52,101 nucleotides of DNA from Alistipes sp. (GTDB lineage Bacteria > Bacteroidota > Bacteroidia > Bacteroidales > Rikenellaceae), in the NCBI GenBank assembly GCA_017465575.1, contig JAFTVX010000005.1:1-52101 (forward strand), in the 5' to 3' direction. Numbering within the stretch: the stretch's first letter is position 1; every line of letters starts with the position of its first letter. Shown here in pieces: positions 34,801-46,669 of this stretch. The translations under genes were made by a program, and so were the position numbers. Under the pieces are notes generated by a model, which was given only the letters and a program-made list of their open reading frames with translations, was not told the origin of the DNA and did not search any database.

Positions 34801-36066
34801 ATGGCTACCAACAGAATTATCATCAAAAATGGCTCGGTTTTGGGCCGCAAAAGCGAGGACATCGCTATCGTAGATGGTCGCATTTCAGAGCGCAGTGAGC
34901 ACATCGAAGCTACCGCCAACGACACCGTAATAGATGCCAAGGGCTTGGTTGTAGCACCCGCATTTGTCGATGTTCATGTTCACCTTCGTGAGCCTGGCTA
35001 TGGCTACAAGGAGCGCATCGCAACAGGCACTATGGCGGCTGCCCGTGGCGGCTACTCTACCGTCTGCTCGATGCCCAACCTCAACCCCGTACCCGACTGC
35101 GTAGAGAACCTCAAGGTGCAGCAGGACATCATCGACCGAGATGCCAAGATTGAGGTGTTGCCCTACGCCGCTATCACCATCGGTCGCAAGGGCGAGGAGC
35201 TGGTGGATATCGCATCGCTCAAAGGCAAGGTTTGCGCCTTCTCTGACGATGGTAGCGGTGTTCAGGTTGATGGTATGATGGAGCGCGCGATGACCGAGGC
35301 GGTGAAGCACGACCAGCTGATTGCTGCACACTGCGAGGTCGAGGAGTTGCTCAAGGGTGGCTATATCCACGATGGCGAGTATGCCAAGCAGAATGGACAC
35401 AAGGGCATCTGCTCCGAAAGTGAGTGGGCACAAGTGAAGCGCGATATCGAGATTGCCGAAAAGGTTGGCTGTCGTTATCATGTTTGCCATATCTCGACCA
35501 AGGAGACCGTAGAGCTTGTTCGTGAGGCAAAGGCTCGTGGCGTAAAGGTTACTTGCGAGACAGGCCCCCACTACCTAATCTTTACGGATATGGACCTCGA
35601 GGAGGATGCTCGTTGGAAGATGAATCCCCCACTTCGCTCGGCAGAGGACCGTGCAGCACTTATCGAGGGTATTAAGGACGGCACAATTGATATGATTGCT
35701 ACCGACCACGCACCCCACAGCGTAGAGGAGAAGTCGAAGGGCTTGAAGGATAGCGCAATGGGCATCGTAGGTTTGGAGACCGCCTTTGCAGCACTCAACA
35801 CCCACCTTGTACGCAAGGGCATTATCTCGCTTGAGCGCCTCATCGAGCTTATGAGCTACAACCCCCGCCGAGTATTCCGCATCGAGGGTGGCTTGGAGGT
35901 TGGCGACCGTGCCGACATCGTCTTACTCGATACCGAGAAGGCTTGGCGTGTAGATAGTAAGAAGTTCTTCTCGATGGGCAAAATTTCGATGTTCGACGGA
36001 AGAGATATGGTGGGCGACATCGCTATGACGATACATCGTGGCGAAGTGGTCTACAAAGCAGAATAA
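34801..36066 (+). CDS. pyrC: Dihydroorotase
   Basis: PyrC cyclises carbamoyl aspartate to dihydroorotate. The 421-residue protein is the type I amidohydrolase with metal ligands in VDVHVHLREPG, and with HICHISTKETV, DMIATDHAPHSVEEK for later metal and substrate residues; CSDAS-like FSDDGSG lies between. It is the first gene of the pyr operon, directly after the leader attenuator. carA follows at 40 nt. Confidence 0.95.
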   Translation: MATNRIIIKNGSVLGRKSEDIAIVDGRISERSEHIEATANDTVIDAKGLVVAPAFVDVHVHLREPGYGYKERIATGTMAAARGGYSTVCSMPNLNPVPDCVENLKVQQDIIDRDAKIEVLPYAAITIGRKGEELVDIASLKGKVCAFSDDGSGVQVDGMMERAMTEAVKHDQLIAAHCEVEELLKGGYIHDGEYAKQNGHKGICSESEWAQVKRDIEIAEKVGCRYHVCHISTKETVELVREAKARGVKVTCETGPHYLIFTDMDLEEDARWKMNPPLRSAEDRAALIEGIKDGTIDMIATDHAPHSVEEKSKGLKDSAMGIVGLETAFAALNTHLVRKGIISLERLIELMSYNPRRVFRIEGGLEVGDRADIVLLDTEKAWRVDSKKFFSMGKISMFDGRDMVGDIAMTIHRGEVVYKAE

Positions 36067-36106: not shown

Positions 36107-37195
36107 ATGAAACCTTTTACCAAGAAACTTGTACTTGAGAACGGCAAGGAGTTTCCGGGCTATGGCTTTGGCTCGAACCGCGTTGCGGTATGCGAGTTAG
36201 TCTTCAACACCTCGATGGTGGGCTATCAGGAGATTGTTTCCGACCCGACTTACACCGACCAGATTGTGGTGATGACCTACCCTCTAATGGGCAACTACGG
36301 CTTTATGGACGAGGACTACGAGAGCAAGTTCCCCGCAATGGGCGGTATGGTTGTTCGTGAGTGCTGCGAGGCACCCAGCAACTTCCGCTACACAAAGACC
36401 ATGAACGAGACCTTCGAGGAGTTGGACATCCCAGGTATCGCAGGTGTCGACACCCGTATGATTACCCGCATCATTCGTGAGGAGGGCACTCAAAAGGCTG
36501 TTATCGTAGACTACGCAATGCCCCACGACGAGGCTATGAAGCTTATCGCCGATAACGACCTTCGCCACGACCAGCTGGAGCGTGTCAGCTGCAAGAAGCG
36601 CTGGTTCTCGCGTACGCCCAACCACAAGTGGGATGTAGTGGCTATCGACTGCGGTATTCGCTACGGCTTTGTGCGTCAGTTCAATGCCAAGGGCTGCAAT
36701 GTAACTATCGTACCCTACAACTCTACAGCCGAGGAGATTATGGCATTCAACCCCGACGGCATCTTCGTATCGAATGGTCCTGGCGACCCCGCAGATGCTG
36801 CTATCGTGAGCAAGACCATCGCCGAGTTGCGTGGCAAGTTGCCCATCTTCGGCGTAGACCTCGGTCATCAGCTTATCGCCATCAGCTATGGCGCCAAGAA
36901 CGACAAGCTCCGCTTCGGCCACCGTGGTGCTAACCACCCCGTGAAGTATCTCGACAACCCCAAGCTCGAGATTGTAACTCAGAACCACGGCTATGTAATC
37001 AACGAGGAGTCGTTGAAGGCTACCCCCTTGAAGGTTACACACCGCAACCTTCTCGACAACACCATCGCTGGTGTCGAGGCTGTCGAGGACAAGGTATTCT
37101 CGGTGCAGTATCAGCCCGATTGCACGCCCGAGGCGAGCAGCAACTATCTTTTCGATAAATTCATTAAATTGATGGAGGACGAGAAAAATGCCTAA
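36107..37195 (+). CDS. carA: Carbamoyl-phosphate synthase small subunit, catalytic triad lost
   Basis: CarA normally hydrolyses glutamine and passes ammonia to CarB. The 362-residue protein has the full N-terminal domain ([18 protein letters not shown]) and a class I glutaminase fold ([16 protein letters not shown]). The nucleophile motif GxCLGHQ reads GVDLGHQ with Asp251. The His-Pro-Glu motif reads Gln336-Pro337-Asp338. Spacing fits Cys269, His353 and Glu355 of the E. coli enzyme. All three residues are replaced, so glutaminase activity should be lost and the synthase may depend on free ammonia. The gene is otherwise intact and its last 8 nt overlap carB. Confidence 0.93.
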
Positions 37196-40100
37196 GAGAA
37201 CAGATATTAAGAAAGTAATGGTTATCGGCTCAGGCCCTATCGTTATTGGTCAGGCAGCCGAGTTTGACTACGCAGGTACGCAGGCTTGTCTTGCACTCAA
37301 GGAGGAGGGTTATCAGGTAATCCTCGTGAACTCTAACCCTGCAACAATTATGACCGATACCCATATTGCCGACAAGGTATATATGGAGCCTCTCACCTTG
37401 GAGTATGTAGCGAAGATTATCCGCTATGAGCGCCCCGACGCTATCGTTCCTGGTCTTGGTGGCCAGACAGGTCTTAACCTCGCCGTACAGCTCGCCAAGA
37501 AGGGTATCTTGGAGGAGTGCGGTGTCGAGATTCTCGGTACCTCGTTCACCTCTATCGAGGAGGCTGAGGACCGTGAGCTCTTCAAGGAGCTCTGTATGCG
37601 CATTGGCGAGCCCGTTATCCCCTCGCACATCACCAACTCTATCGAGGAGGGTATCGAGGCAGCTAACGAGATTGGCTACCCCGTAGTTCTTCGCCCCGCA
37701 TTTACGCTTGGCGGTACAGGTGGTGGTTTTGCCGACAACGAGGAGGAGTTGCGCGACATTATGCGTAACGCTCTCGCCCTCTCGCCCATTCATCAGGTAT
37801 TGGTCGAGAAGAGCATCAAGGGCTACAAGGAGATTGAGTTCGAGGTAATGCGCGACAAGAACGACACGGCTATCGCCATCTGCTCGATGGAGAATGTCGA
37901 CCCCGTAGGTATCCACACTGGTGACTCTATCGTGGTTGCTCCGAGCCAGACCTTGGCAGCTAAGGAGTACAATATGCTCCGCTCAAGCGCCTTGAAGCTT
38001 ATCCGTGCCCTAAAGATTGAGGGCGGTTGCAATGTGCAGTTTGCACTCGACCCCCTCTCGTTCAAATACTTCATCATCGAGGTTAACCCCCGCGTGAGCC
38101 GCTCATCGGCACTTGCTTCGAAGGCGAGTGGCTACCCCATCGCCCGAGTTACGGCAAAGGTGGCTGTGGGTATGACCCTCGACGAGATTCGTATCGCCAA
38201 CACCCCGGCAAGCTTTGAGCCCACCTTGGACTACATCGTTACGAAGGTTGCCCGCTTCCCCTTCGATAAGTTTAGCGACGCATCGAACGAGCTTGGCACA
38301 CAGATGAAGGCTACGGGTGAGGTTATGTCTGTTGGTCGTACCTTCGAGGAGGGCTTGTTGAAGGCTGTTCGCTCGTTGGAGACTGGCGTATGCCACATCT
38401 ACCACAAGAAGTTCGACACTATGTCCGTAGAGGGCATCTTGGCATATATCCGTAAGGGTACCGACGACCGTCTGTATGCTATCGCCGAGCTTATCCGCCG
38501 TGGTGTAGACCTACTTCATGTTTACGACAATACGAAGATTGACCTCTTCTTCCTCGAGAAGCTCAAGAACATCGTCGAGATGGAGAACATGCTCAAGGAG
38601 AATGTCAAGGATATCGAGACCCTGCGCGATGCAAAGCGTATGGGCATCAGCGATAAGTTTATCGGTCAGCTATGGTCGATGACCGAGAGCGAGGTATTCC
38701 TTATGCGTAAGGCAAACAACATCTTCCCCGTATACAAGATGATTGATACCTGCGCTGCCGAGTTCGACTCGAAGGTGCCTTACCTATACTCTACCTACGA
38801 GCAGGAGAACGAGTCGATAGTATCGGACCGCAAGAAGATTGTGGTTCTCGGCTCTGGTCCTATCCGTATCGGTCAGGGTGTCGAGTTCGACTACTCTACC
38901 GTGCACGCCATCTGGGCTATCCGTGAGGCTGGCTACGAGGCTATCATCGTCAATAACAACCCCGAGACCGTATCTACGGACTACACCACCAGCGACAAGC
39001 TCTACTTCGAGCCTTTGACCGTCGAGGATGTGATGAATGTTATCGACTTGGAGAAGCCTACGGGTGTCGTTGTATCGTTGGGTGGCCAGACCGCTATCAA
39101 CCTTGCTAAGCCCCTTGCCGACCTCGGCGTAAATATCGTAGGTACCGGCATCGAGGCTATCAACAATGCCGAGGATAGAAAGTGCTTCGAGGCTATTATG
39201 CGCCGTGCAGGCATCCCACAGCCCGAGGCTGAGGCTATCACCGACATCGAGCGTGGTGTGGCAGCTGCCGAGCGCATCGGCTATCCCGTATTGGTACGCC
39301 CCAGCTATGTGTTGGGTGGTCGTGCTATGCAGATTGTCTCGAACGAAGAGGCTTTGCGCCACTACCTTAAGACCGCCGTTGAGATTAACGAGGACCAGCC
39401 CGTGTTGGTTGACAAGTATATTATGGGTAAGGAGTTGGAGGTTGATGCTATCTGCGACGGCACCGATGTCTTTATCCCCGGTATTATGGAGCATGTCGAG
39501 CGCACCGGTATCCACTCGGGCGACTCTATCTCGGTATACCCCACCTTCAGCGTTAGCCAGAAGGTTAAGGATACAATCATCGACTACACCATTCGTCTTG
39601 GTAAGGAGATTGGCATCATCGGCTTGTACAATATCCAGTTTATCGCCGACGACCGCGATATGGTCTATGTCATCGAGGTTAATCCACGCTCATCGCGTAC
39701 CGTGCCCTTCCTCTCGAAGGCTACTGGCACACCTATGGCGAAGATTGCCACAAATGTTATGCTTGGCTCGTCGCTCAAGGAGCAGGGCATCAATGTCATC
39801 GTTCCCGAGGAGAAGAAGCGCTGGTATGTTAAGACCCCTGCATTCTCGTTCGCCAAGATTCGTGGCGTAGACTCTTACCTCTCGCCCGAGATGAAGTCTA
39901 CGGGTGAGGCTATCGGCTACGACTCGTCGTTGCGCCGTGCGCTCTACAAGTCGTTGCAGTCGTCGGGTATGACCATCGTCAACTACGGTACTATCTTCGT
40001 GTCGATTGCCGATGCCGACAAGCCTCGTGCTCTGCCTCTTATCCGCCGCTTCTACGAACTCGGCTTCAATATCGAGGCTACGAGTGGCACTACGAAGTTC

Positions 40101-40370
40101 TTGCGCGAGAATGGCATCCGCACTCGTTGCTTGAAGAAGCTCAGCGAGGGCTCTACCGAGATTTTCGACTCGATCCGCAAGGGCCATGTAAACTATGTTA
40201 TCAACACCATCGACATCAACCAGCATAGCTCACGCCTCGACGGCTACGATATCCGTCGTTGCGCTGTGGAGAACAATGTTACAATCTTCACCGCATTGGA
40301 GACTGTGAGCGTACTTCTCGATGTATTGGAGGAGATCACGCTGGGTGTATCGACAATTGATGCAGAATAA
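37188..40370 (+). CDS. carB: Carbamoyl-phosphate synthase large subunit
   Basis: CarB makes carbamoyl phosphate from bicarbonate, ammonia and two ATP. The 1060-residue protein has the duplicated ATP-grasp halves ([41 protein letters not shown]), [15 protein letters not shown] and [15 protein letters not shown], and a C-terminal MGS-like regulatory domain ([25 protein letters not shown]), where UMP or ornithine act in other bacteria. Overlaps carA by 8 nt; its stop shares TAATG with pyrK. The synthetase half shows no obvious loss. Confidence 0.97.
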
Positions 40371-41110
40371 TGTATAAGAAAGGTATCTATACGATTTTGA
40401 GTAACGAGCCTCTAACACCTGCGGTATACCGTATGGTGTTGGAGGGCGATACCCAATATATCACCCGTTCGGGACAGTTTATCAATATTGAGCTTACGGG
40501 CAAGTTCTTGCGCCGCCCTATCTCGGTAGCTGACTACGACGAGCGCACCGTTACTATTATATATAAGGTAGTAGGTAGCGGCACGGAGCAGATGCGTGGT
40601 ATGGTTGCGGGCGAGAAGCTCGACATCCTCACAGGTCTTGGCAACGGCTTTTCTACGGATAACGATGCCAAGCGCCCCTTGCTTGTTGGCGGTGGCGTAG
40701 GTGTTCCTCCTATGTATAACTTGTGTAAGCGTTTGCTCTCGGAGGGCAAGCGCCCCACGGTTATCATCGGCTTCAACACCAAGGCGGAGCTCTTCTACGA
40801 AGAGGAGTTCAAGGCGTTGGGCGTAGATGTCGTTGTGGCTACGGCTGATGGCTCGGCTGGCGTCAAGGGCTTTGTTACCGACGCTATCCGCGAGGCAAAG
40901 GTCGAGTTCGATTACCTCTACACTTGCGGTCCTCTGCCTATGCTCAAGGCGCTGTACGATGCTACGGACACCCCCGCAGAGTTTAGCTTCGAGGAGCGTA
41001 TGGGTTGTGGCTTTGGTGCTTGTATGGGTTGCTCGTGCAAGACCAAGTATGGCAACAAGCGCATTTGCAAGGATGGTCCAGTACTTAAACGAGAGGAGAT
41101 TATATGGTAA
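40370..41110 (+). CDS. pyrK: Dihydroorotate dehydrogenase electron-transfer subunit
   Basis: PyrK carries FAD and a [2Fe-2S] cluster and passes electrons from dihydroorotate (via PyrD) to NAD+. The 246-residue protein has RRPISVADYD (FAD binding) and LLVGGGVGVPPMYNL (NAD binding). The cluster Cys are in MGCGFGACMGCSCKT and RICKDGP. Overlaps the carB stop by 1 nt and pyrD by 7 nt, so translation is coupled. Confidence 0.95.
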   Translation: MYKKGIYTILSNEPLTPAVYRMVLEGDTQYITRSGQFINIELTGKFLRRPISVADYDERTVTIIYKVVGSGTEQMRGMVAGEKLDILTGLGNGFSTDNDAKRPLLVGGGVGVPPMYNLCKRLLSEGKRPTVIIGFNTKAELFYEEEFKALGVDVVVATADGSAGVKGFVTDAIREAKVEFDYLYTCGPLPMLKALYDATDTPAEFSFEERMGCGFGACMGCSCKTKYGNKRICKDGPVLKREEIIW

Positions 41111-42024
41111 AGCACTACGACACATCGGTTGAGCTTTGCGGAGTGAAGCTCGCCAACCCCGTGATTCCCGCATCGGGCACCTTTGGCTTTGGTAGAGAGT
41201 TCGCCGAATACTACGACCTCGACTGCCTTGGCGCTATCTCGTTTAAGGGTACTACGCGCGATGCCCGCTTTGGCAACCCCACACCCCGTATTGCGGAGTG
41301 CACATCGGGTCTTATCAACTCGGTAGGCTTGCAAAATCCTGGTATCGACAAGGTTATCTCGGAGGAGCTACCCCACCTTCGCCAAATCTTCCACAACCCC
41401 ATCGTAGCCAACATCAGCGGCTTCTCGTTGGAGGAGTACGAGGAGTGTTGCGCAAAGATTGACAAGGAGGAGCAGGTCGAGATTATCGAGGTCAATGTAT
41501 CGTGTCCCAATGTTCACAATGGCGGTATGAGTTTCGGCACACAGCCCGAGTCGGCAGCCGAGGTAACACGCCGTGTTAAGGCCGTAACGACGAAGCCCGT
41601 GTTTATCAAGCTCAGCCCTAATGTTACGGATATCGTGGCTATCGCCCGTGCTTGCGAGGAGGCAGGTGCAGATGGTATCTGTTTGATTAACACTCTGTTG
41701 GGTATGCGTATCGACACTGTTCGTCGTAAGCCCGTTATTGCCAACAAGATGGGTGGTTTCTCGGGTGATGCTATCTTCCCCGTGGCTGTTCGTATGGTCT
41801 ATCAGGTGGCAAATGCTTGTAAGATTCCCGTTATGGGTTGCGGTGGCGTAAGCTCGGCATCGGATGTTATCGAGATGATGATGGCGGGTGCTACGGCTGT
41901 TCAGGTGGGAGCTGCCAACCTCAAGAACCCCTATGCTGCAAAGGAGATTATCGAGGCTCTGCCCAAGGAGATGGAGCGCCTTGGTATCGAGCGCCTTAGC
42001 GACATTATCGGTATTGTAAAGTAA
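41104..42024 (+). CDS. pyrD: Dihydroorotate dehydrogenase, class 1B catalytic subunit
   Basis: PyrD oxidises dihydroorotate to orotate. The 306-residue protein has [39 protein letters not shown] with the catalytic Cys typical of class 1 enzymes, and [26 protein letters not shown] at the FMN phosphate site. The paired pyrK gene confirms the NAD-linked heterotetramer. The separate DHOD-like gene at 1059 is a distinct paralogue. Confidence 0.96.
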
Positions 42025-42050: not shown

Positions 42051-42752
42051 ATGTCAAAGCGTGATGTTATTATTGCTTGCGATTTTAGCAGCAAGGAGCA
42101 GACACTCAACTTTTTAGATAAGTTCACAGGTCGTAAGCCCTTTGTGAAGATTGGTATGGAGCTCTTCTATGCCGAGGGTCCCGAGATTGTACGCACCATC
42201 AAGGAGCGTGGCCACCGTATCTTCCTCGACCTTAAGTTGCACGATATTCCCAACACCGTTAAGAAGGCGATGTCGGTATTGCGTAACTTGGATGTCGATA
42301 TGACCAATGTACACGCTGCGGGTACGGTAGATATGATGAAAGCGGCTATCGAAGGTCTTACTCGTGAGGATGGCACTCGTCCCTTGCTTATTGCCGTTAC
42401 ACAGCTCACCTCGACTTCGGAGGAGCGTATGCAGAAGGAGTTGCTTATCGGCGCTTCGATTAACGACACTATCGTTAAGTATGCCGAGAATGCCAAGGCT
42501 GCAGGCCTCGATGGCGTTGTTTGCTCACCCCTCGAGGCTGCAATGGTTAAGGAGGCTTGTGGCAAGGAGTTTATGACCGTAACCCCCGGTGTTCGCTTCG
42601 CAGATGGCGATGTTGGCGACCAGGTGCGTGTAACTACCCCCGAGCGTGCCAAGGAGATTGGCTCGGACTTTATCGTCGTAGGTCGCCCCATTACTGCTGC
42701 CGACGACCCCGTTGCCGCATATGAGCGTTGCATGCGTGAATTTGCTGAATAA
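42051..42752 (+). CDS. pyrF: Orotidine 5'-phosphate decarboxylase
   Basis: PyrF decarboxylates OMP to UMP, the last step. The 233-residue TIM-barrel protein has [17 protein letters not shown], the signature Asp-Lys-Asp region, and VTPGVRF at the phosphate site with FIVVGRPIT. There is a 26-nt gap after pyrD and 23 nt before pyrE. Confidence 0.97.
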
Positions 42753-42775: not shown

Positions 42776-43405
42776 ATGGAGAAGAAAATAGCAAAAGACC
42801 TTTTGTCTATCGGCGCGGTATTCTTGCGCCCCGAGCAGCCCTTCACTTGGGCAAGTGGCATCAAGAGCCCTATCTACTGCGATAACCGCCTTACACTCAC
42901 AGCCCCCGAGGTGCGCAACCATGTCGAGGAGGGTTTGGCAGAGCTTATCCGCAAGCACTACCCCGAGGTGGAGGTGTTGATGGGTACATCGACCGCAGGT
43001 ATCGCCCACGCTGCTATCACCGCTACAATTCTTAACTTGCCTATGGGCTATGTTCGCTCTGGCTCGAAGGACCACGGCCGTGGCAACCAGATTGAGGGTA
43101 AGTTGGAGAAGGGTCAGAAGGTCGTTGTTGTCGAGGACCTTATCTCTACCGGCGGTAGCTGTATCGAGGTTGTCGAGGCTTTGCGCAATGCAGGTGCCGA
43201 TGTTTTGGGCATCGTGAGCATCTTCACATACGGTATGCAGAAGGGCTTGGATCGCTTGGCAGCTGCCGAGGCAAAGAACTATTCGTTGTCGAACCTCGAC
43301 GCTTTGGTAGAGGTTGCTGCCGAGGAGGGTTATATCAAGCCAGAGGACAAGGAGCGCATCCTTAAGTTCCGTAGCAACCCCTCAGACGAGAGCTGGATTA
43401 AGTAA
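42776..43405 (+). CDS. pyrE: Orotate phosphoribosyltransferase
   Basis: PyrE joins orotate and PRPP to OMP. The 209-residue protein has [27 protein letters not shown], the flexible loop [17 protein letters not shown], and the PRPP motif [13 protein letters not shown]. Between pyrF and pyrB; no fusion with pyrF. Confidence 0.97.
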
Positions 43406-43429: not shown

Positions 43430-44497
43430 ATGAAGCATTTGATTGACCCTACCGATTTGTCTGTTCAGGAGATTTCGGAGATTATTGCGTTGGCAGAGGA
43501 TATCATCGCCAACCGCGAGAAGTATAGCGAGGTTTGCCGTGGCAAGAAGCTCGCAACGCTCTTCTATGAGCCCAGCACACGCACACGCTTGAGCTTTACC
43601 TCGGCGATGATGGAGCTTGGTGGCAATGTCATCGGCTTTGCCGATGCCAAGTCGTCGTCGGTATCTAAGGGCGAGACGGTGCAGGACACCGTGAGGGTTA
43701 TCAACTGCTTTGCCGATATTATCGCTATGCGCCACAAGGTCGAGGGCGCACCCTTGGCAGCTACCGAGGTGTCGCGCACACCCATCATCAACGCGGGCGA
43801 TGGCTCACACAGCCACCCCACGCAGACGATGACCGACCTTCTTACGATTAAACGCGAGTTGGGCACGCTCAACAACCTAACAATAGGTCTTGTGGGCGAT
43901 TTGAAGTATGGCCGTACCGTACACTCGCTTATCAAGGCGATGACACGCTACGAGAACACCAAGTTTGTGCTTATCGCACCTCCCGAGTTGGCTCTCCCCG
44001 ACTATATCAAGCACGATGTATGCGACCGCTATGGCATCGAGTACCGCGAGTCGAACGATATCGAGAGCGTTATCGGCGATGTCGATATCCTCTATATGAC
44101 ACGCGTACAGCAGGAGCGCTTTACCGACCTCGACGAGTACGAGCGCGTTAAGAATTGCTTCGTGTTGGATGCCGAGAAGATGCGTGGTGCCAAGGAGCGT
44201 ATGGCAGTTTTGCACCCTCTGCCCCGTGTCAACGAGATTGCAATTGATGTAGATAGCGACCCCCGTGCCGCCTATTTCCGTCAGGTCGAGAATGGTAAGT
44301 TTGTGCGTATGGCGCTTATACTCAAGCTCTTGGAGTGGCAGAAAGACCCCTCTCGCCAGTTCGACCACGGTGGCAAGGACCTTGGTTGCAAGTGTTCGAA
44401 CCCCTTGTGTATCTCGAACCTTGAGCCTGTGCGCCGCCGCTTCGAGACCACCGATGGCACAACACGCTGTGTCTACTGCGAGTGGAAGGCAGAGTAA
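43430..44497 (+). CDS. pyrB: Aspartate carbamoyltransferase with PyrI-like zinc tail
   Basis: PyrB condenses carbamoyl phosphate and aspartate. Catalytic residues lie in [12 protein letters not shown] (Ser-Thr-Arg-Thr-Arg), [10 protein letters not shown] with the inter-subunit Ser/Lys, [10 protein letters not shown] and VLHPLPR. The usual chain of about 305 residues ends near LKLLEW; here a tail continues to 355. Residues Cys322, Cys327, Cys347 and Cys350 ([13 protein letters not shown] then CVYCEW) follow the C-x4-C and C-x2-C zinc site of E. coli PyrI, with shared CIS-EPV wording. The allosteric nucleotide-binding domain of PyrI is absent. No separate pyrI is in the operon. Ends with a terminator at 44519. 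Confidence 0.93.
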
Positions 44498-44636: not shown

Positions 44637-45596
44637 ATGACCGAGTATTACATTCATAATATTGATGATACAATAAGTGATAACATAGTGTCTGATATTT
44701 CATCAGACTATGGCTATATATGCTCACCGATGAATTACATAGGAGGTAAATATAAATTATTGAGCCAAATCATACCTCTGTTCCCGACTCAAATAGACAC
44801 ATTTGTAGACCTCTTTTGCGGTGGATGTAATGTTGGAATTAACGCACATGCAAATAAATATGTTTTCAATGATAATCTACTATACTTAATTGATTTGTAC
44901 AAAGCATTCAACAATTCTAGTTATGAGGAGATTATCAAGCACATAGAGAGTAGAATCTCTGATTATGGTCTTTCTATGACAAACAATGAGGGATACAATA
45001 ATCTTAGAAGGATATATAATACAGAGCGCAACCCATTAGATCTCTTTGTGCTTGTTGCATATTCATTTAATCACCAAATAAGATTCAACAACTCACATGA
45101 GTTTAATAATCCATTTGGCAAGGAGAGGAGTTGTTTCAATCCTAAGATGAACAAAAATCTATATGCTTTTGTAAATACTATTCAGAAAAAGAATGTAGAG
45201 TTTACTTGTTCTAATTTCGATGATTTTGATTTCTCATCTATCACTAAAAATGATTTTATATATTGCGACCCGCCATACCTAATTACCACTGGTACATATA
45301 ATGATGGAAAGCGAGGTTTTACGGGTTGGGGTATAGCTGAAGAGACAAAGCTATTAAATTTACTCACTGAACTTAATACCCGCGGAGTTAGATTTGCGCT
45401 TTCAAATGTTATTAGACATAAAGGAAAGACTAATGATTTATTGACTGCATGGATTGAAAACAATAATTTTAATGTAATCCATGTTAATAAAGACTATGCA
45501 AACTCTAACTACCATACAATAAATAGAGATAAGCAAGCAACAGATGAAGTTCTAATAACCAATTATCAACCTCAAAAAGAACTTGCACTGTTTTAA
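44637..45596 (+). CDS. D12-class adenine-N6 DNA methyltransferase (first)
   Basis: The 319-residue Dam-like enzyme has NYIGGKYKLLSQI near residues 34-46, the SAM motif FVDLFCGGCNVG and the catalytic DPPY in FIYCDPPYLITTG. D12-class enzymes methylate N6 of adenine. Together with the second methyltransferase and the following putative endonuclease it forms a type II restriction-modification system; two enzymes suggest an asymmetric site with each strand modified separately. Codon use is strongly AT-biased relative to neighbours. The recognition sequence cannot be read from the protein. Confidence 0.9.
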   Translation: MTEYYIHNIDDTISDNIVSDISSDYGYICSPMNYIGGKYKLLSQIIPLFPTQIDTFVDLFCGGCNVGINAHANKYVFNDNLLYLIDLYKAFNNSSYEEIIKHIESRISDYGLSMTNNEGYNNLRRIYNTERNPLDLFVLVAYSFNHQIRFNNSHEFNNPFGKERSCFNPKMNKNLYAFVNTIQKKNVEFTCSNFDDFDFSSITKNDFIYCDPPYLITTGTYNDGKRGFTGWGIAEETKLLNLLTELNTRGVRFALSNVIRHKGKTNDLLTAWIENNNFNVIHVNKDYANSNYHTINRDKQATDEVLITNYQPQKELALF

Positions 45597-45607
45597 TAAT
45601 ATATTAG

Positions 45608-46669
45608 ATGAGATATATCGGCAATAAAGAGAATATTATTGACAAGATACACAACATTCTAACAGTCAATGGAGTATCCGGAGAATCATTTTTTGATTTT
45701 TTCTCTGGCACTACAAATGTGGCTAAATTTTATAAAAAGTTAGGATACACAGTATCATCATCCGATATCATGTATATGTCATTCTGTTTACAGAAGGCCT
45801 ATATAGAGAACAATGACGAGCCTCAGTTTGCCTCGTTAATTTCCACATTGCAACTATCAAGTCAATCTCTACTCTTTTCTACACCATTGGAAGTAGTAGT
45901 CGATTACTTAAACAGTATTGACGATGTAGAGGGATTTATTTATCAGAATTATACACCTGACGGTACAGCCAACTTGGAAATTCCTCGCATGTATTTTAGT
46001 AGCGAGAATGGTAAAAGGATTGATGCAATCAGACAACAGATAGAATCTTGGAAAATTAAGGCACTTATCACCGACTCCGAATATTATATTCTATTAACAT
46101 GCCTAATTGAATCTGTTTCATTTTATGCGAATATATCTGGCGTGTATGCTGCCTTTCAGAAGAAATGGGATCCTCGAGCGACAAAAAAATTTATGTTACG
46201 CCCGATAAAGACCATTAACAATAACAAACTCAATCAGGTTTACAATGCAGATAGCATGTGTATTGCTGACAAAATCACAACTGATATTCTGTATTTAGAC
46301 CCCCCATACAATGAGCGACAATACCTTCCTAATTATCATATATTAGAAACTATTGCGAAATATGATAATCCTGAGATAAAAGGTGTTACAGGAATGAGAA
46401 AGTATGGCAACGAAAAATCTCTGTTCTGCAATGCCAAGACCGCTATTGAGAGTCTTAATTATATAGCTAGAACTGCAAATTACAAGCACCTCGTATTGAG
46501 TTATAATTCCGAAGGTATAATGAAACAAGAGGATATTTTAGCTATACTATCCCAGTATGGCAATGTACGACTTGAGCAGTTTCAATACGCTAGATTTAAG
46601 AGCAATAGCAACGGTTTATCAAAAACCAAGAAACACATATTTGAACAACTATATATTTTGAGCAAATGA
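45608..46669 (+). CDS. D12-class adenine-N6 DNA methyltransferase (second)
   Basis: A 353-residue enzyme with N-terminal MRYIGNKENIIDKI, motif I FFDFFSGTTNVAKFYKKLG, and LDPPYNERQYLPNYHILETIA. The DPPYNxRQY form is that of methyltransferases from type IIS systems such as the FokI group, as I recall the family. It is not close to the first enzyme beyond the shared core, which suits opposite-strand recognition of one asymmetric site. It starts 12 nt after the first gene and overlaps the endonuclease gene by 4 nt (ATGA). Confidence 0.88.
   Translation: MRYIGNKENIIDKIHNILTVNGVSGESFFDFFSGTTNVAKFYKKLGYTVSSSDIMYMSFCLQKAYIENNDEPQFASLISTLQLSSQSLLFSTPLEVVVDYLNSIDDVEGFIYQNYTPDGTANLEIPRMYFSSENGKRIDAIRQQIESWKIKALITDSEYYILLTCLIESVSFYANISGVYAAFQKKWDPRATKKFMLRPIKTINNNKLNQVYNADSMCIADKITTDILYLDPPYNERQYLPNYHILETIAKYDNPEIKGVTGMRKYGNEKSLFCNAKTAIESLNYIARTANYKHLVLSYNSEGIMKQEDILAILSQYGNVRLEQFQYARFKSNSNGLSKTKKHIFEQLYILSK

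Follow-up and report, generated by a model that had tools for sequence, protein, structure and literature searches.

A predicted glutaminase-dead carbamoyl phosphate synthetase in gut Bacteroidales related to Alistipes

Described carbamoyl phosphate synthetases and the operon in the window

The closest described systems are the Escherichia coli-type carbamoyl phosphate synthetase II (CPS II; CarAB) and the vertebrate CPS1. In E. coli, CarB makes carbamoyl phosphate from ammonia, and its carboxyphosphate and oligomerization domains contact CarA (PMC6245113). Human CPS1 keeps an inactive glutaminase-like domain in which the Cys is changed to Ser294, and uses ammonia, not glutamine (PMC4655335). 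Among other bacterial amide-forming enzymes, single-domain NAD synthetases use free ammonia in vivo, and the ammonia form is described as likely ancestral (PMC3376133); in the CPS reported here, by contrast, the glutaminase appears to have been lost secondarily and repeatedly. The loss of carA together with carB and argF was described for an endosymbiont (PMC11842425). Among the titles and abstract openings listed from the open-licence literature, none names a CPS from bacteria in which CarA is dead or missing.

The window (i.e., the whole analyzed stretch of 52,101 nucleotides from Alistipes sp.) carries a pyrimidine operon in the order pyrC-carA-carB-pyrK-pyrD-pyrF-pyrE-pyrB (Table 1). Its carA product (362 aa) was identified by a full-length match to TIGR01368 (396.8 bits; cut-off, 307.35). 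The initial annotation had proposed that the catalytic Cys-His-Glu is replaced by D251-Q336-D338 in an otherwise conserved frame, and alignment with E. coli and Bacteroidales CarA confirmed both the replacements and the open frame. The E. coli reference has C/H/E at residues 269/353/355, and a phmmer alignment to E. coli structures agrees with the D/Q/D assignment; the Cys-His-Glu triad of class I glutaminases is thus lacking. The same D/Q/D is found in two relatives (97 and 99% identity) from other named assemblies. A frameshift or pseudogene was ruled out by the open frame and by the median dN/dS of carA in the clade of the window (0.118). On the basis of the sequence, this CarA is very likely unable to hydrolyze glutamine, and by the known mechanism glutamine would be excluded as its donor. 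The label "glutamine-hydrolysing" that TIGR01368 gives to such proteins is very likely wrong.

The surrounding pocket is changed as well. The column of Cys339 contains Ser in all 61 triad-bearing CarA of the window type and Cys in 35 of the 36 readable sequences of the window's clade. Thr48 aligns to E. coli S47, which we take to be a glutamine ligand.

The CarB partner had been annotated as seemingly intact, and its model score (Table 1) and conserved key columns support this. The two genes are overlapping neighbors, and their products are predicted to bind each other. The window enzyme has the same two subunits and family models as E. coli-type CPS II but is without the glutaminase triad. 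It resembles vertebrate CPS1 in that a glutaminase-like moiety is kept while its nucleophilic Cys is replaced (by Asp in the window). It differs in that CPS1 is a single mitochondrial polypeptide activated by N-acetylglutamate, whereas the subunits here are separate, bacterial, and encoded in a pyrimidine operon; in addition, the window has D/Q/D, and other members of the genus are without the small subunit. We infer an enzyme that is CPS1-like in its working yet, being unfused, is not a CPS I; by sequence descent its subunits belong to the CarA and CarB families, with the glutaminase residues missing.

A PyrI-type metal-binding domain (PF02748; 1.3e-8) is fused to the C terminus of PyrB in the window, and no separate PyrI gene was found among the open reading frames neighboring the operon. 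Directly after the operon lie two neighboring genes for D12-class adenine DNA methyltransferases.

Table 1. Features of the pyrimidine operon of the window and its surroundings
Feature	Description	Position	Strand	Evidence
pyrC	dihydroorotase, directly 5' of carA; adjoins carB in carA-deleted genomes	34801..36066	+	
carA	CPS small subunit, catalytically dead by sequence	36107..37195	+	TIGR01368; D/Q/D for E. coli C269/H353/E355
Thr48	replaces Ser aligned to E. coli S47	36248..36250	+	
Asp251	codon GAC; replaces nucleophile Cys (E. coli C269)	36857..36859	+	
Gln336-Pro337-Asp338	replace His-Pro-Glu (E. coli H353-P-E355); Q336, CAG, 37112-37114; D338, GAT, 37118-37120	37112..37120	+	
Cys339	adjoins triad; loop after Cys339 one residue shorter	37121..37123	+	
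carB	synthetase subunit, intact; 8-nt overlap with carA	37188..40370	+	TIGR01369, 1476.5 bits (cut-off, 1027)
pyrK	electron-transfer subunit of dihydroorotate dehydrogenase	40370..41110	+	PF10418
pyrD	dihydroorotate dehydrogenase	41104..42024	+	PF01180
pyrF	orotidine phosphate decarboxylase	42051..42752	+	translation reading and synteny
pyrE	orotate phosphoribosyltransferase	42776..43405	+	translation reading and synteny
pyrB	aspartate carbamoyltransferase, consumes carbamoyl phosphate	43430..44497	+	TIGR00670, 346.7 bits
D12-class methyltransferase	adenine DNA methyltransferase	44637-45596		
D12-class methyltransferase	adenine DNA methyltransferase	45608-46669		

Distribution and origins of CarA without the triad

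Whether the change is shared across the lineage had been left open, and it proved to be widespread. Of the 180 genomes of the genus, CarA was read in 158, carA was absent from 4, and 18 were unread (no full match or not fetched). The triad was present in 56 of the 158 and absent from 102, of which 36 belong to the clade of the window (referred to here as the D clade) and 66 carry other dead pockets (including G395, whose sequence ends before the second site). The D-clade genomes have the states DQD (30 genomes), GQD (3), DQA (1), DQS (1), and GHN (1). In a scan of named genomes, 75 of the best 80 of 122 confirmed loci were labeled Alistipes or Rikenellaceae, and many of their titles mention ruminant caecum, colon, or rectum; the group is presumably the RC9 or Cryptobacteroides lineage.

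We aligned 235 distinct CarA sequences from the named genomes and from the family and order of the window (236 rows with the E. coli reference). The states at positions 269/353/355 were CHE in 119 rows (two of them E. coli), DQD in 31, SHE in 26 (i.e., the Cys-to-Ser change of human CPS1), GHE in 12, GNE in 11, and SYE in 6, with rarer states in the rest. Cys and His-Pro-Glu were kept in all 29 order-level CarA other than that of the window, a set of best-scoring matches and not a random draw. Dead states of Bacteroidales-type CarA also occur in two other genera of the family, one with R-N-E, G-H-E, and C-Q-E and one with three cases of C-Q-D. Triad-bearing CarA of the window type was found at three loci (L069, L070, and L106) on contigs labeled Oscillospiraceae or Clostridia, which suggests operon-type transfer between phyla or mislabeled bins.

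The initial annotation had named a second, intact carA as the finding that would make this subunit a bystander. The window genome (94.28% complete; 47 contigs) contains no second CarA over the TIGR01368 cut-off, and its only other match to the model (26.6 bits) lies inside GMP synthetase; the bystander role was rejected on this basis. In this genus, intact CarA reaches scores of about 435 to 478 bits, and no second intact copy was found for the 36 D-clade genomes among the matches listed, which reach down to about 411 bits, although a second copy of lower score is conceivable; the second, partial CarA of one D-clade genome (G407) is likewise D-Q-D. Among the matches listed, second copies over the cut-off occur in four genomes of the genus (G430, G441, G470, and G472), each with a G-H-E copy of the window type and a triad-bearing one, and in two genomes of other genera (G540 and G545).

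Trees of CarB place the dead and deleted forms in several lineages. In a FastTree phylogeny pruned to 138 sequences of the window type, these forms make up nine maximal clades, and an IQ-TREE phylogeny of 31 CarB sequences again gave nine dead lineages and rejected a single origin (deltaL, 428; p-AU, 1e-56). Among the well-supported placements are those of the D clade beside triad-bearing G312, G421, and G459, of the deletion clade next to four relatives that bear the triad, and of a G-D-A/T clade beside triad-bearing G467. The CarA tree is weaker than the CarB tree, with several weak and different group placements. In a PurL tree of 30 genomes, contrary to the CarB tree, the D clade is sister to a G-N-E/N-H-E group (support, 100); assuming irreversible loss and a midpoint root, this tree requires at least five losses. 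These sequence-based trees indicate that loss of the glutaminase is recurrent in the genus, while the number of lineages depends on the tree; transfer of the operon, or fewer losses than nine, is possible.

The nitrogen donor and other amidotransferases

We propose that CarB takes its nitrogen from free ammonia, with CarA kept as a noncatalytic subunit, as in vertebrate CPS1; we hold this to be the probable explanation with good confidence. Free ammonia, bicarbonate, and ATP would feed CarB directly, yielding carbamoyl phosphate for pyrimidines. The gut is presumed to be rich in ammonia. Once ammonia suffices, the glutaminase triad of CarA would be free to drift, the triad-less subunit would at first be retained in a structural role beside CarB, and carA would finally be deleted in one branch. 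The reading implies that ammonia is the donor in vivo, that cellular ammonia is sufficient, and that CarA still binds CarB. It is favored by the loss of the triad, the intact CarB and operon, the recurrence, and the absence of the gene in some relatives. Several points count against it: the ammonia levels required by E. coli CPS were called likely physiologically irrelevant (PMC6245113); glutamine is still used, since GuaA and PyrG of the window genome are of the glutamine type and an intact PurL was seen in each of the 30 genomes tested; D251, Q336, and D338 vary rather little in the D clade; the pooled triad-bearing class has a higher carA dN/dS than the D clade; and the number of dead lineages depends on the tree.

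Four genomes (G330, G347, G405, and G409) have the operon pyrC-carB-pyrK-pyrD-pyrF-pyrE-pyrB, from which carA is cleanly absent. Their CarB is about 77 to 78% identical to that of the window, and at four separate junctions the carB ATG lies about 40 to 100 nt past the pyrC stop, with neither a carA remnant nor a new gene between pyrC and carB at any of the four. No TIGR01368 match was obtained anywhere in these genomes at an E value of 0.001 (completeness, 92, 85, 81, and 65%, respectively). For any one of them taken singly, a copy in unassembled DNA is conceivable, but the operon itself is continuous in each. Since no replacement gene lies between pyrC and carB, free ammonia is favored over a docked replacement glutaminase. 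The initial annotation had offered free ammonia and a separate glutaminase as alternatives; the four unreplaced deletions point to the former and speak against the latter in its docked form.

A glutaminase encoded elsewhere might still supply CarB, either docked in the place of CarA or by raising local ammonia. Other amidotransferases are indeed still present (the window genome has GuaA and PyrG, and every one of the 30 genomes tested has PurL), but no new gene entered the operon where carA is absent. Moreover, PF00117 detected only CarA, GuaA, and PyrG in the window genome, the last two retaining Cys-His-Glu, and in the carA-deleted genomes it detected only a GuaA remnant (G330, G347, and G405) or had no match (G409). 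We consider this alternative improbable.

A wider pattern is seen in GuaA. We compared GuaA across 150 genomes of the genus among the matches listed, with the short form defined as under 500 aa. Within these matches, the short form occurs in 0 of 46 triad-bearing genomes, 0 of 31 D-clade genomes, 49 of 54 other genomes with dead CarA, and 3 of 3 genomes lacking carA; for 28 genomes of known CarA state the matches listed include no GuaA, and in one of these, D-clade genome G325 (98% complete), none at all was found. The Cys and His-Pro-Glu motifs are missing from 17 aligned short GuaA. Four of the five exceptions are G430, G441, G470, and G472, which keep a full GuaA; since these same genomes hold a second, triad-bearing CarA, they fit the pattern. 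In the fifth (G333), GuaA in fact belongs to the short type, but its frame is extended.

The short GuaA is a separate family, its ATPPase part being 46 to 52% identical to that of the full form. This divergence ruled out truncation in place and points to replacement or differential loss. Relatives at 85 to 87% identity occur in Bacteroides and Parabacteroides records, and the form is also present in Subdoligranulum records, so that the short form is not special to the genus of the window. GMP synthetases of about 435 aa without the glutaminase active site were observed in 17 genomes (L392-L408) and in NZ_OY725764, NZ_OY725961, and OY725880; Parabacteroides and Bacteroides records annotate this short enzyme as glutamine-hydrolysing.

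Of 30 genomes, 21 gave a PyrG match; in five of these (G320, G323, G348, G363, and G463), all of which have a dead CarA and a short GuaA, the Cys and/or His of PyrG are gone. PyrG is intact in all six D-clade and all six triad-bearing genomes with a match, as well as in four other genomes with dead CarA, and had no match in G384, G399, G362, G376, G351, and G330 (completeness, 92 to 98%). PurL kept Cys, His, and Glu throughout the 30 genomes tested. With PurL intact, PyrG partly so, and GuaA short in some genomes, the erosion of glutaminases is selective; unlike most other dead lineages, the clade of the window retains GuaA and PyrG of the glutamine type. Reviews describe that added ammonia can serve as a substrate of GMP synthetases and of CTP synthase (PMC10526850 and PMC9138612), but the NH4+ constants seen for GMP synthetases are high (26, 103, and 174 mM; PMC10526850).

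We lean, by a modest margin, toward a broader proposal, i.e., that a gut Bacteroidales lineage is shifting its nucleotide synthesis from glutamine to ammonia, repeatedly in CPS, in most of those lineages also in GuaA, in some cases in CTP synthase, and not in PurL (the clade of the window having shifted only CPS among these), and that CarB of the carA-deleted branch is physiologically glutaminase-free. If so, this CarB would be, per the searches made, the first bacterial CPS to work without a glutaminase subunit. The rule that glutamine is the donor, as stated in a 2018 review, would be broken by this genus, where the triad is missing from 102 of the 158 genomes read and carA from 4 more. The genus would then provide a replicated natural experiment in turning a glutamine enzyme into an ammonia enzyme, a step of the kind seen in vertebrate CPS1, and would make testable both the roles of the small subunit beyond ammonia supply and the CarB changes needed at natural ammonia levels.

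Selection on CarA and CarB

In the D clade, the median NG86 dN/dS values were 0.118 for carA and 0.049 for carB (203 pairs), the latter a mark of strong purifying selection on CarB. The pooled triad-bearing class gave 0.194 and 0.131 (1,100 pairs, with two CarA types mixed and often saturated), which for carA is at face value the opposite of relaxation. Because of this mixing and saturation, we relied on the ratio of CarA to CarB protein distances, which is 3.72 in the D clade versus 2.06 in triad-bearing genomes of the window type (54 gene pairs); other dead groups gave 3.28 (Ser/Ala), 4.01 (G-D), 2.93 (G-H-E), and 2.53 (G-N-E). Selection on D-clade CarA together with its raised ratio indicates a subunit that is kept, yet changes faster relative to CarB.

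Such retention might reflect a repurposed site, in which D/Q/D with Cys339 and Thr48 forms a ligand sensor or supports hydrolysis with a relocated nucleophile. T48, D251, Q336, D338, and C339 are largely fixed in the D clade (among 37 sequences, D251 in 33, Q336 in 36, and D338 in 34), and 13 CarA columns switched residue between the triad-bearing class and the D clade, five or more of which coincide with the triad or adjoin it. Ranked by conservation within the clade, however, the triad columns fall at the 30th to 44th percentile, no higher than a typical column; this offers no hint of a new dedicated site and weakened the candidate of a new conserved pocket. Neither His nor Glu remains at the triad positions of the window, and in other lineages the Cys was lost in pockets of a very different make-up, or carA itself was lost. 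We regard repurposing as very unlikely.

The catalytic residues of CarB (which we take to be R129, R169, E215, Q285, E299, N301, R715, E761, Q829, E841, and N843) and the presumed tunnel-gate columns (C232/A251/A314) show no change in any of the dead or deleted groups, and mild variation was seen at columns 210, 242, and 754 of the presumed pocket. For each of the 299 CarB columns that changed six or more times, we counted changes on dead and intact branches symmetrically (P < 0.01); 16 columns were enriched on dead branches versus 4 on intact ones, with 3 expected for each. Of the 16, 13 lie in the two domains that contact CarA in E. coli (carboxyphosphate and oligomerization; PMC6245113), 3 in the carbamoyl-phosphate domain, and none in the allosteric domain. 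Three columns pass Bonferroni correction (E. coli positions 485, 258, and 882), one of them outside the carboxyphosphate and oligomerization domains. An earlier list of CarB columns altered in many dead lineages was discarded as reference-biased, because E. coli shares several of the residues.

It is also conceivable that CPS is dying altogether, with pyrimidines salvaged and CarA decaying first. Of 268 genomes of the family, 46 gave no CarA match above the cut-off and 41 gave none for CarB, and some of these genomes are nearly complete (for example, G521 and G522; 99%). The low dN/dS of carB in the D clade, the high CarB score of the window, and the complete pyr operon, which persists even in the carA-deleted genomes, make this very unlikely. 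Finally, although nearly all named relatives are metagenome-assembled genomes, an artefact of assembly or binning is exceedingly improbable given 102 genomes of the genus (the D clade of 36 ruling out an assembly error), named assemblies of several sources and hosts, open frames, identical changes in close relatives, and four separate carA-less junctions.

A separate clade of stand-alone CarB (L204-L209, L212-L215, and L217), about 40% identical to that of the window and with no adjoining carA, was also observed. In G488 it adjoins amino-acid-kinase and class-III aminotransferase genes (argB/argD-like), in G355 and G357 GAF-domain genes, and in G357 an ABC-transporter gene. These proteins are possibly further ammonia-dependent synthetases.
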